Below, piece by piece: positions 1,094 through 40,574 of a stretch of 64,000 nucleotides of DNA (position 1 is the stretch's first letter; every line of letters begins with the position of its first letter). The position numbers and the translations under genes were made by a program. The notes under the pieces are model-generated. The model saw nothing but the letters and a program-made list of their open reading frames with translations, ran no database searches and was not told the DNA's origin. The DNA comes from Actinokineospora diospyrosa (lineage in GTDB: Bacteria > Actinomycetota > Actinomycetes > Mycobacteriales > Pseudonocardiaceae), in assembly GCF_024171925.1 (NCBI RefSeq), contig NZ_JAMTCO010000012.1, positions 124,001 through 188,000 on the forward strand, in the 5' to 3' direction.

Positions 1094-1215
1094 GTTATCC
1101 ACAACCTCCCCGGCTATCCACAGCTTTTCGCGAACCCCCGCCGCGCCCCAGGGACCGGGTAGACTGGCACCGGGGACGCCCCCCGTGGTGTGGTGGGGGG
1201 CGGGGCCAGCGGGGA
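1094..1215 (+). repeat. Intergenic TTATCCACA/TAGACTGG element, copy A
   Basis: Contains TTATCCACA at 1095-1103, a one-mismatch second box at 1114-1122, and TAGACTGGCACCGGGG at 1160-1175 followed by a C6 run and a G-rich stretch. Related copies lie near 20435, 38335 and 40574 (the last on the minus strand). The first box to TAGACT distance is 65 bp here, against 64 in copies B and C. This copy reads toward the 3' end of upp and has no downstream gene of its own. Confidence 0.8.
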
Positions 1216-5220: not shown

Positions 5221-6660
5221 GTGGACCTTGTGAACTGGGAATACGCACCGGCGCCCGAGTCGCGGGCGATCGCGAACCTCAAGCCGAGCTACCGGATGTT
5301 CGTCGACGGCGAGTTCGTCGAGGGCGCGGGCGAGCCGCTCAAGTCGGTCAACCCGGCCACCGAGGAGGTGCTGGCCGAGGTCAGCACCGCGAGCTCGGCC
5401 GATGTCGACCGCGCGGTCAAGGCGGCCCGGCGGGCCCACGACAAGACCTGGGGCCGGATGCCCGGCGCCGAGCGGGCCAAGTACATCTTCCGGATCGCCC
5501 GGATGATCGCCGAGCGGGCGCGTGAGCTGGCCGTGCTGGAGTCGCTCGACAACGGCAAGCCGATCAAGGAAGCGCGCGACACCGACGTCCCCACGGCCGC
5601 GGCGCACTTCTTCTACCACGCGGGGTGGGCCGACAAGCTCGACTACGCGGGCTACGGCCCGGACCCGCGCCCGCTGGGTGTCGCCGGTCAGGTGATCCCG
5701 TGGAACTTCCCGCTGCTGATGGCGGCGTGGAAGATCGCACCGGCGCTGGCCTGCGGCAACACCGTGGTGCTCAAACCGGCCGAGACGACCCCGCTGACCG
5801 CGCTGGTGCTCGCCGAGATCATCCAGCAGGCCGAGCTGCCGCCCGGGGTGGTCAACATCCTGCCCGGCGCCGGGGACGTCGGCGCGGAACTGGTCAACCA
5901 CGCGGGCGTGGACAAGGTCGCGTTCACCGGTTCCACCGAGGTCGGCAAGATCATCCAGTCCGCGCTGGCGGGCACCGGCAAGAAGCTGACCCTGGAGCTG
6001 GGCGGCAAGGCGGCGAACATCGTCTTCGACGACGCCCCGCTCGACCAGGCCGTGGAGGGGATCGTCAACGGGATCTTCTTCAACCAGGGCCACGTGTGCT
6101 GCGCCGGGTCGCGGCTGCTGGTGCAGGAGTCGATCGCCGAGGAGCTGCTGGCCAAGCTGCACGCCAGAGTCGCCACCCTGCGCGTGGGCGACCCGCTGGA
6201 CAAGAACACCGACGTCGGCGCGATCAACTCGCGCGAGCAGCTCACCAAGATCACCGAGCTGGTCGCCTCCGGTGAGCGGGAGGGCGCCGAGCGCTGGACG
6301 AGCCCGTGCCCGCTGCCGGACAAGGGCTTCTACTTCGCGCCGACGGTGTTCGCCAACGTCACCCAGTCGATGCGGATCGCCCGCGAGGAGATCTTCGGCC
6401 CGGTGCTGTCGGTGCTGACCTTCCGCACCCCGGACGAGGCGCTGGCGAAGGCCAACAACACGCCCTACGGGCTGTCCGCTGGCGTGTGGACCGAGAAGGG
6501 CTCGCGCATCCTGTGGATGGCCGACCGGCTGCGCGCGGGCGTGGTGTGGGCCAACACGTTCAACCGCTTCGACCCGACCGCCCCGTTCGGCGGCTACCAG
6601 GAGTCGGGCTTCGGTCGCGAGGGCGGCCGGGCCGGGCTGGAGGCGTACCTCGATGTCTGA
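5221..6660 (+). CDS. NAD(P)-dependent aldehyde dehydrogenase
   Basis: 479 residues, the full length of the ALDH superfamily. The nucleotide-binding segment GQVIPWNFPLLMAAWKIAPA is near residue 156. The general base Glu259 is in LTLELGGKAANIV. The catalytic cysteine is Cys293 in FNQGHVCCAG, and EEIFGPVLSV and the C-terminal PFGGYQESGFGREGG loop are present. The GTG start lies 9 nt after deoC, so the two are likely co-transcribed. Its last 8 bases overlap a second, half-length ALDH-like gene. Probable substrate is acetaldehyde or another short aldehyde from deoxyribose breakdown; that is inferred from context. Confidence 0.92.
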   Translation: MDLVNWEYAPAPESRAIANLKPSYRMFVDGEFVEGAGEPLKSVNPATEEVLAEVSTASSADVDRAVKAARRAHDKTWGRMPGAERAKYIFRIARMIAERARELAVLESLDNGKPIKEARDTDVPTAAAHFFYHAGWADKLDYAGYGPDPRPLGVAGQVIPWNFPLLMAAWKIAPALACGNTVVLKPAETTPLTALVLAEIIQQAELPPGVVNILPGAGDVGAELVNHAGVDKVAFTGSTEVGKIIQSALAGTGKKLTLELGGKAANIVFDDAPLDQAVEGIVNGIFFNQGHVCCAGSRLLVQESIAEELLAKLHARVATLRVGDPLDKNTDVGAINSREQLTKITELVASGEREGAERWTSPCPLPDKGFYFAPTVFANVTQSMRIAREEIFGPVLSVLTFRTPDEALAKANNTPYGLSAGVWTEKGSRILWMADRLRAGVVWANTFNRFDPTAPFGGYQESGFGREGGRAGLEAYLDV

Positions 6661-7519
6661 TCGCGTGACGGTGTCCAAGACCTACAAGCTCTACCTGGGC
6701 GGGGCGTTCCCGCGCTCGGAGTCCGGCCGCACCTACCCGGTCGCCGACAGCAAGGGCCGCTTCCTGGCAAACGCGGCCCAGGCCTCGCGCAAGGACCTGC
6801 GCGAGGCCGTGGTCGCCGCGCGCGGCGCGTTCGGCAAGTGGTCTGGGGCGACGGCTTACAACCGGGGCCAGGTGCTCTACCGGGTCGCCGAGCTGCTGGA
6901 GGGCAGGCGGGAGCAGTTCGCCGAGGAGGTCGCCGCCGGTGAGGGCGTGCCCGCGCGGCGGGCCCAGGCGCTGGTGGACGCCGCGGTGGACCGCTGGGTC
7001 TGGTACGCCGGGTGGACCGACAAGATCGCCACCGTGCTGGGCGCGGCGAACCCGGTCGCCGGGCCGTACTTCTCGTTCTCGGTGCCGGAGCCGACCGGCG
7101 TGGTCGGGGTGCTGGCGCCGCAGAGGTCCTCGCTGCTCGGGCTGGTCAGCGTGCTCGCCCCGGTGCTGGCCGTCGGCGCGACCGCGGTCGTGGTGAGCAG
7201 CCAGGACCGGCCGCTGCCCGCGATCACCCTGTCCGAGGTGCTGGCGACCTCGGACGTGCCCGGTGGTGTGGTCAACCTGCTGACCGGGCACACCGCGGAG
7301 CTGGCACCGTGGCTGGCCGCGCACGCCGACGTCAACGCGCTCGACCTCACCGGTGCGCCCGGCGAGCTGCGGACCGACCTGGAGAAGGCCGCGGCGGGCA
7401 CGGTGAAGCGGGTGCTGCGGGCGCCGTCGGCCGAGCCGGACTGGACCGAGCGGCCCGACATCAAGCGGCTGCGGGCGCTGGTGGAGACGAAGACCGTCTG
7501 GCATCCCACGGGGGTCTAG
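6653..7519 (+). CDS. Half-length aldehyde dehydrogenase paralogue without catalytic domain
   Basis: 288 residues that align with the N-terminal, cofactor-binding half of ALDHs: KLYLGGAFPRSESGRTYPV, a FGKWSGATAYNRGQVLYRVA segment, and PTGVVGVLAPQRSSLLGLVS where the NAD-binding loop sits. The usual PWNFP is replaced, the ELGG glutamate and catalytic cysteine are absent, and the protein ends soon after the position expected for the first half. It overlaps the intact ALDH by 8 bp, so translation is probably coupled. The frame is clean with no decay, which suggests a retained partner or pseudoenzyme rather than a broken gene. Confidence 0.8.
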   Translation: MSDRVTVSKTYKLYLGGAFPRSESGRTYPVADSKGRFLANAAQASRKDLREAVVAARGAFGKWSGATAYNRGQVLYRVAELLEGRREQFAEEVAAGEGVPARRAQALVDAAVDRWVWYAGWTDKIATVLGAANPVAGPYFSFSVPEPTGVVGVLAPQRSSLLGLVSVLAPVLAVGATAVVVSSQDRPLPAITLSEVLATSDVPGGVVNLLTGHTAELAPWLAAHADVNALDLTGAPGELRTDLEKAAAGTVKRVLRAPSAEPDWTERPDIKRLRALVETKTVWHPTGV

Positions 7520-20190: not shown

Positions 20191-20434
20191 CCCCAACCCG
20201 CCTGTCACCACCTCCACACCCCACCGCCCCCCGGCGGCGAGTGCTCACACCACACCGACCCCGGCCCGCCCGGGACCCCGGCGAGCCGACCCCGGCCCTC
20301 TCCACACCCCGGAGTCCGCGCTCTGCCCTGCCCTGCCCTGCCCTGCCCACGCCACGCCACGCCACGCCACGCCACGCCACGCCACGCCACGCCACGCCAC
20401 GCCACGCCACGCCACGCCACGCCACGCCACGATG
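20191..20434. repeat. Pentanucleotide repeats: CCCTG run and 16-copy GCCAC array
   Basis: After a C-rich stretch, a short run of CCCTG units (about 20323-20347) passes directly into GCCAC repeated 16 times without interruption at 20351-20430. The array is intergenic, between TetR and the repeated element. Perfect short-unit arrays like this change copy number by slippage. No protein-coding use is likely, although open frames exist through it. Confidence 0.9.
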
Positions 20435-20545
20435 AGTTATCCACAACGCCTGAGTTATCCACAGATTCTCGGCGGCCCTGTTTCCGCAGCTCAGAACTGA
20501 TAGACTGGCACCGGGGTCGCCCCCCGGTGAGGGTGGGGGCTGGGT
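20435..20545 (+). repeat. Intergenic TTATCCACA/TAGACTGG element, copy B
   Basis: TTATCCACA at 20437-20445 and 20455-20463, then TAGACTGGCACCGGGG at 20501-20516, then TCGCCCCCCGGTGAGG and a G-rich stretch. Spacings are identical to copy C. This is the one copy that reads toward a gene on the same strand, the NLR-like gene at 20698. Confidence 0.85.
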
Positions 20546-38334: not shown

Positions 38335-38447
38335 AGTTATCCACAACGCCCAAGTTATCCACAGATTTTCGGCGACCCACCGTTTGATCTTGTAACCAGA
38401 TAGACTGGCATCGGGGCCGCCCCCCGGAGAGGGTGGGGGCTGGGGCG
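38335..38447 (+). repeat. Intergenic TTATCCACA/TAGACTGG element, copy C
   Basis: TTATCCACA at 38337-38345 and 38355-38363, TAGACTGGCATCGGGG at 38401-38416, then CCGCCCCCCGGAGAGG and a G-rich stretch. Box-to-box (18 bp) and box-to-TAGACT (64 bp) distances equal those of copy B exactly. It reads into the 3' side of the leftward YihY-type gene, with no gene of its own downstream. Confidence 0.85.
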
Positions 38448-40470: not shown

Positions 40471-40574
40471 GCAGCCCCCACCCTCACCGGGGGGCGGCCC
40501 CAGGGCCAGTCTACTGGGCCCCACCGACAAAGGATCTTGAAAGTGGGGCGGCGAAGATCCACATGTGGATAACT
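40471..40574 (-). repeat. Intergenic TTATCCACA/TAGACTGG element, copy D
   Basis: On the minus strand TTATCCACA (40572-40564) is followed 59 bp later by TAGACTGGCCCTGGGG (from 40513) and GCCGCCCCCCGGTGAGG, then a G-rich stretch. The second direct box is missing; instead the first box extends into the palindrome ATCCACATGTGGAT. It lies between convergent RhiA-like and trpS genes. Confidence 0.8.

Follow-up and report, generated by a model that had tools for sequence, protein, structure and literature searches.

What is the function of an intergenic element that recurs four times within a 64-kb window (the whole stretch of DNA analyzed here), and that joins putative DnaA boxes (TTATCCACA) at a defined distance to a TAGACT hexamer followed by C- and G-rich DNA? 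An initial annotation of the window interpreted this element as a promoter plus a structured RNA controlled by a TTATCCACA-binding protein. Here, comparing sequences from the window, its genome and related genomes, we arrive with moderate confidence at a modified interpretation, in which the element is an interspersed repeat with a DnaA-box-controlled promoter that would make short noncoding RNA at gene ends.

Four copies of a conserved intergenic element

Re-reading of the sequence placed the four copies where they had been annotated. Copies 2 and 3 contain two exact TTATCCACA boxes at 18 bp spacing and TAGACTGG 64 bp after box 1, and copy 1 differs from them by 1 bp in the latter distance, as had been described; measured start to start, box 1 and TAGACTGG are 65, 64, 64, and 59 bp apart in copies 1 to 4, respectively. 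The second box of copy 1 is CTATCCACA and lies 19 bp after the first, and copy 4 has a single box that is followed by an inverted half box. The features of the four copies, in window coordinates, are:

1095..1103, plus strand: copy 1, DnaA box 1, TTATCCACA
1114..1122, plus strand: copy 1, DnaA box 2, CTATCCACA, one mismatch
1160..1167, plus strand: copy 1, TAGACTGG, i.e., proposed -10 hexamer (1160-1165) plus GG; proposed +1 at 1172
1172..1201, plus strand: copy 1, GGGG, C-run and G-runs, the conserved proposed initial transcribed region
20437..20445, plus strand: copy 2, DnaA box 1, TTATCCACA
20455..20463, plus strand: copy 2, DnaA box 2, TTATCCACA
20501..20508, plus strand: copy 2, TAGACTGG, proposed -10 (20501-20506); proposed +1 at 20513
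20513..20542, plus strand: copy 2, GGGG, C-run and G-runs
38337..38345, plus strand: copy 3, DnaA box 1, TTATCCACA
38355..38363, plus strand: copy 3, DnaA box 2, TTATCCACA
38401..38408, plus strand: copy 3, TAGACTGG, proposed -10 (38401-38406); proposed +1 at 38413
38413..38442, plus strand: copy 3, GGGG, C-run and G-runs
40564..40572, minus strand: copy 4 (class B, see below), DnaA box, TTATCCACA
40555..40563, plus strand: copy 4, inverted half box AGATCCACA abutting box 1
40506..40513, minus strand: copy 4, TAGACTGG, proposed -10 (40508-40513); proposed +1 at 40501
40472..40501, minus strand: copy 4, GGGG, C-run and G-runs

As annotated, only one of the four copies (copy 2) has a co-oriented gene ahead of it. 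Based on Pfam matches, the neighbors are TetR and UPRTase (copy 1), TetR and NB-ARC (copy 2), a D-Ala-D-Ala carboxypeptidase followed by a small ORF without match, and a BrkB-like protein (copy 3), and a tRNA-synthetase 1b and an ORF without match (copy 4). Directly upstream of copy 2, a CCACG pentanucleotide repeat of ~17 units spans positions 20350-20432. All six exact TTATCCACA sites in the window are inside elements, and nine sites with at most one mismatch were found versus 2.39 expected. TAGACTGG with at most one mismatch was found 21 times versus 24.35 expected, i.e., at chance level, and is, therefore, significant only in combination with a box.

A multicopy repeat in one bacterial family

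The window corresponds to positions 124001-188000 of contig C12 in a genome of 8.11 Mb and 29 contigs (G000). A genome-wide search with a two-part pattern, as proposed in the initial annotation, gave copy numbers far beyond chance: TTATCCACA-N40-70-TAGACTGG has 93 exact matches and the reversed control 0. Similarly, the core TAGACTGG..GGGG..CGCCCCC with at most two mismatches is present 107 times (control, 0), and TTATCCACA alone 184 times (control, 4). After merging of copies with identical ends, the two-part matches represent 90 elements, i.e., 35 of class A with two direct boxes (72-74 bp), 54 of class B (66-67 bp), in most of which an inverted half box directly continues the box, and a single shorter form (58 bp). 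The sequence between the boxes and TAGACT had been described as unconserved; this is roughly correct for class A, to which window copies 1-3 belong, whereas in class B, which includes copy 4, an ATCCACTGTCGGTGGGGCC stretch is kept. After the boxes, the layout is TAGACTGG, N4 and GGG. In conservation profiles, similarity extends from ~25 bp before the first box to ~75 bp past TAGACTGG and then fades, and neither these profiles nor the flanks of near-identical copies have sharp conserved ends. When 102 core copies were grouped within 1,000 bp on the same strand, 42 were single, 30 were in pairs and 30 in triplets, with 31 of 35 array intervals measuring 258-555 bp; the copies of one triplet also have the spacer in common, as expected from tandem duplication. 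The same genome also contains, at C1:329699-330424, three copies of another variant, which has GGGTAGACTGGATTCGGGG; the fully read copy (L004) is without C-run.

Among relatives, the exact two-part pattern is present in 20 of 150 genomes, the window's genome counted. A 72-position core model (R1) from which the box columns were left out, although its training elements were first found through TTATCCACA, was then searched with strict filters and detected the core in 52 of 150 sampled genomes and 26 of 79 genera (E ≤0.001). These 52 are among the 90 sampled genomes of the Pseudonocardiaceae, a family of soil actinobacteria, and none of the 60 genomes of other families had a match. At most 33 cores were scored per genome, so that counts of 33 are minima. 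Of 394 genomes of the class, 3 contained a generalized pattern, and each of them belongs to the window's family. A named scan returned at least 114 stretches, and among the matches listed are Kibdelosporangium, Amycolatopsis, Kutzneria, Actinosynnema, Streptoalloteichus, Actinokineospora, Labedaea, Actinophytocola, Umezawaea, and Lentzea; three of these genera (Actinokineospora, Kutzneria, and Kibdelosporangium) belong to the Pseudonocardiaceae, as we take the other seven to do. Five further rows among the matches listed are from an assembly labeled Rhodococcus rhodnii (Nocardiaceae); these copies resemble those of Kibdelosporangium, and we think that the label of this assembly is doubtful. 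In open-licence PMC full texts, we met no description of the element.

Boxes and predicted promoter at fixed distances

We used 30 core loci found with the box-free model, 29 of which were re-found by script and which represent 13 genera, to analyze the boxes. Within 140 bp upstream, 27 of the 29 cores have a forward box (≤1 mismatch), and in 26 of them it is at the fixed positions -64..-67, -46..-49 or -58/-59. Thus, the spacing, which the initial annotation had predicted to be conserved in related species, is kept. More broadly, a box is present at -44..-50 in 17 and at -61..-70 in 15 of the 29 loci, and class B boxes are at -58/-59. In total, there are 42 forward versus 3 reverse boxes, and the rate in flanks is 14 in 139,446 sites. 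L123 and L126, which come from the same genus, lack a box with ≤1 mismatch within 140 bp upstream, and the sole box of L108 is at -95. In 30 of the 35 class A copies of the window's genome, box 2 starts 46 bp before TAGACT.

The class A box 2 has the letters (C/T)(T/C)(A/G)TCCACA, and element boxes overall are TT(G/A)TCCACA with (C/T)(C/T) variation. They match the DnaA box used around dnaA and oriC in the window's family: in all eight genomes analyzed for dnaA flanks (six Actinokineospora and two of other genera; G000 not among them), TTGTCCACA is present both downstream (presumed oriC) and upstream of dnaA. This is in line with the high-affinity boxes in Table 1 of PMC4285127, the part of that paper considered here, which gives TTGTCCACA for Streptomyces coelicolor and Mycobacterium tuberculosis and TTATCCACA for Escherichia coli. 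By contrast, Kutzneria elements carry TTGTCCACA while the oriC of Kutzneria albida is reported, in the available part of PMC4210621, to be without classic TT(G/A)TCCACA boxes, which counts against DnaA as the binding protein. In Kibdelosporangium copies (e.g., L157, L187, and L188) and in the Rhodococcus-labeled L196, a palindrome-like GAACGGTCCGTTC or a near variant precedes the DnaA box and is perhaps the site of a second regulator.

Several observations suggest that the DNA following the boxes is a promoter. First, when the DNA upstream of 633 gene starts is compared, TANNNT is most frequent at -13 (35 starts) and -12 (33 starts), i.e., at the leaderless position; with -10 hexamers 12-13 nt before +1, the GGG of the element falls on +1. 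Thus, the spacing of -10 and +1 is that of the genomes' own leaderless genes. Second, the four positions between TAGACTGG and GGG are free in a set of 115 elements, for which the search pattern itself required GGG; in alignment A1 (38 sequences), for which GGG was not required, one of the G positions never varies and another is conserved in ≥90%. Third, GC skew changes sign at the element, with C in excess before it and G after it. This is the case in convergent, co-directional and antiparallel contexts, divergent copies being too few for this comparison. For isolated copies in G000 (n = 38), GC skew is -0.34 at -100 and +0.51, +0.52, and +0.37 at +25, +75, and +125, and the excess of T over A at the latter positions is +0.16, +0.40, and +0.28; at other loci (n = 114), GC skew is -0.11 at -100 and +0.61, +0.22, and +0.14 downstream, with T over A at +0.30, +0.23, and +0.14. 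In element-free 3' flanks, GC skew ranges from -0.20 to +0.11 in G000, where convergent gaps are few, and from -0.07 to +0.07 elsewhere. Because the conserved element is itself G-rich up to +75, the skew is independent evidence only beyond this point. The upstream bias is toward C and T and is no mirror image of the downstream bias; the pattern is, therefore, not origin-like, and the downstream GC and TA skews fit transcription.

The -10 hexamer itself is less typical. TAGACT had been described as the -10 hexamer of leaderless genes; it does occur in this role, but rarely, i.e., at -12 in 2 of 633 gene starts, and it is hardly enriched anywhere in the 60 bp upstream (5 of 633 versus 3 on the opposite strand). 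A -35 hexamer at 16-18 bp was not found, and there are just T-rich positions at -21/-20 before TAGACT (spacer ~15); an activated promoter need not have a -35 element.

About half of the other TTATCCACA sites, judged from 20 G000 stretches, belong to a second repeat family with TAGGCTGT(A/G)TATCGGGGGC or near variants, in which box 2 starts 48-49 bp before TAGGCT. This family has 126 copies in G000, 24 in G012, 12 in G005, 8 in G006, and none in the other 37 of 41 genomes, and its copies are often in tandem, ~110-150 bp apart (e.g., L373:2965-3170, L379:3025-3235, and L374:2906-3170). The two families have boxes, -10 and GGGG in common, while the C/G-run is absent from the second, and we see this as the strongest argument for the promoter rather than a hairpin as the working unit. 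An HNH/DUF222 neighbor of the second family was not apparent in ten loci, in which the first part of the translation of each predicted neighbor was inspected by eye.

Other candidate functions were rejected. Ten folds had z-scores of -2.04 to +1.16 relative to shuffles, one of six consensus pairs had a two-sided change (in 1 of 38 sequences), the covariation term was +0.08, and an Rfam search gave no match. Thus, while the fixed box/-10/GGG geometry, the leaderless +1 ruler, the downstream skew, the degeneracy of the boxes and TTGTCCACA beside dnaA uphold the promoter and the TTATCCACA-binding protein of the initial annotation at the level of sequence, the folds, covariation and Rfam do not uphold its structured RNA. 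For a coding function, the orthologs L071 and L281 have different indels within the C-run and immediately past it, making a short peptide there unlikely. For replication-strand polarity, 24 of 35 elements in G015 are co-oriented (p = 0.04, a weak bias), as are 24 of 41 on contig C1 of G005 (p = 0.35, no bias).

Copies at gene ends, dispersal and descent

With genes called by a codon-usage script and array copies counted singly, 102 copies in G000 were examined, of which 4 are at locus edges and 98 could be classed as convergent (51), co-directional (31), antiparallel (13) or divergent (3); element-free gaps of ≥150 bp in the same loci are convergent in 8, tandem in 46 and divergent in 39 cases. 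In the loci of the named scan, which cover several genera including Actinokineospora, 122 copies were examined, 11 at edges and 5 inside called genes; the 106 classed copies comprise 57 convergent, 14 co-directional, 29 antiparallel and 6 divergent ones, and element-free gaps of ≥120 bp comprise 18 convergent, 93 tandem and 91 divergent ones. Thus, divergent gaps are avoided and gene 3' flanks preferred, which is a REP-like trait, and most copies have no co-oriented gene in front.

This distribution would be expected if the element were a REP- or MITE-like repeat without benefit to the host, whose insertion in gene 3' flanks is harmless and whose box/-10/C-run anatomy is either a relic or serves its own copying, e.g., as a site that host replication proteins open or prime. 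We consider this alternative a serious one, although on balance somewhat unlikely. Location and dispersal require no host function, and traces of dispersal are clear. Near-identical copies in Actinokineospora globicatena, compared at 20 loci chosen for near-identity, have ~150-180 bp in common within unrelated flanks and are mosaics of exchangeable left and right modules. A two-element array is duplicated in inverted orientation around ordinary genes (L059:3944-4496 and 6388-6910; 553 bp, 88%). The gap that holds an element at G015 site L272 is empty of the core in all eight other species with matching flanking genes, five of which carry a core in the next gap according to the model search. 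One element is even located in frame within a polyketide synthase gene, between the KR and carrier domains, at orthologous positions in two species (L314 ~1554, minus strand; L331 ~1519, plus strand). Against this alternative, the spacing across unconserved filler is fixed, with GGG at +1 distance, in several genera. Also, 20 of the 35 elements in G015 have an element in the orthologous gap of G011 (31 elements there), i.e., positions are common by descent; in 15 of these 20 pairs, the core could be aligned (regex), and boxes, -10 and C/G-run are mostly preserved, whereas the sequence farther out often could not be aligned. Moreover, a RAYT-type partner was not found: G000 has no Y1 transposase, and PF01797 is missing in 12 of 14 element-rich genomes. 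Finally, phage and plasmid collections (BLAST of copy 2) and viral contigs (pattern scan) contain no match.

In one of the 20 orthologous gaps (L304 versus L333), the element has opposite orientations in the two species. G015 and G007 also contain many copies of a separate MITE-like repeat, a palindrome of ~170 bp that has GGTGGTTCGCCTTGATTCGGGG as inverted ends (L272:1176-1346).

Discussion

We propose that the element is an intergenic repeat of ~110-160 bp, the conserved body of which is a regulated promoter. In the model that we infer, which extends to DnaA binding, transcription, the direction of regulation and a benefit to the cell, if any, one or two direct boxes starting ~46-49 and 64-67 bp (58-59 bp in class B) before the -10 would be bound by DnaA or a protein of the same specificity. 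From a class I-like position, this protein would either recruit RNA polymerase or block it. The predicted promoter would consist of the -10 TAGACT, GG as the discriminator, four unconstrained positions and a start at the nearly invariant GGG, followed by the C-run and G-runs. Its activity would result in numerous short, G-rich noncoding RNAs at the 3' ends of genes that are tied to the replication cycle. Dispersal, together with local tandem duplication, would slowly spread the copies, which are kept by descent. In its most far-reaching form, this model implies a chromosome-wide network of DnaA-controlled noncoding transcription throughout the bacterial family, in which two families with ~230 promoters (107 + 126) in one genome produce short G-rich RNAs at gene ends, and in which the replication initiator is a global transcription regulator or transcription reports DnaA occupancy. 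We regard this extension as unlikely.

Alternatively, the dispersed boxes could be sinks that set the level of free DnaA, with the promoter being secondary or resetting occupancy. The excess of TTATCCACA over the control in G000 and the 126 further box-bearing candidate promoters of the second family would provide such sinks, and titration is reported for chromosomal boxes of E. coli in the available part of PMC12371093. In M. tuberculosis and Mycobacterium smegmatis, only five strongly bound DnaA regions are described in the part of PMC7738170 that we draw on, and the window's family would, therefore, be unusual. Nevertheless, boxes that only titrate need no fixed distance to TAGACTGG, the elements are not significantly clustered at oriC in G015 (35 elements, KS p = 0.15), and core counts within one genus vary from 0 (G002) to 107 (G000); we therefore consider titration as the main function quite improbable. 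A bidirectional terminator or collision site for converging genes, with the GC hairpin as the working part, is very improbable: about half of the copies are in convergent gaps, many of them tens of bp from either stop codon, but the hairpin is no more stable than shuffles and has no U-run, 31 and 14 copies in the two data sets read toward a co-directional gene, the C/G-run is missing from the second family, and boxes and -10 are left unexplained.

The DnaA-box-controlled promoter repeat that we propose resembles several known systems in part. REP/BIME sequences of enterobacteria are short repeats that number in the tens to hundreds, lie at the 3' ends of genes, in many cases convergent ones, and form clusters; REP elements are palindromes tied to RAYT transposases. 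The element is similar in copy number, clustering and location but differs in having a promoter-like body and DnaA boxes, in the weak evidence for a hairpin, with no fold beyond chance where REP has a stable palindrome, and in the rarity of Y1 transposases in the genomes rich in it. DnaA-bound promoters are described for rpmH-dnaA and the region upstream of dnaB in the part of PMC7738170 available; these also have DnaA boxes upstream of a promoter, but concern single genes, as opposed to ~100 similar and mostly noncoding copies here. E. coli datA/DARS and titrating boxes likewise represent numerous non-origin DnaA boxes; however, in the available part of PMC12371093, these are clusters or scattered boxes, and a fixed promoter beside each box, as in the element, is not described. 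The left end of IS2, as given in the part of PMC3299598 considered, begins with TAGACTGG followed by C-rich sequence as in the element; no further similarity was seen there, and we take this match as coincidence.

If the promoters are real, these findings suggest that a promoter, instead of a palindrome, can form the center of an intergenic repeat. The promoters would then represent an unusually large set of similar DnaA-box promoters compared with the five strongly bound regions given for mycobacteria in that part of PMC7738170, and they would offer a ready system in which to ask whether DnaA titration and DnaA-driven transcription act chromosome-wide.
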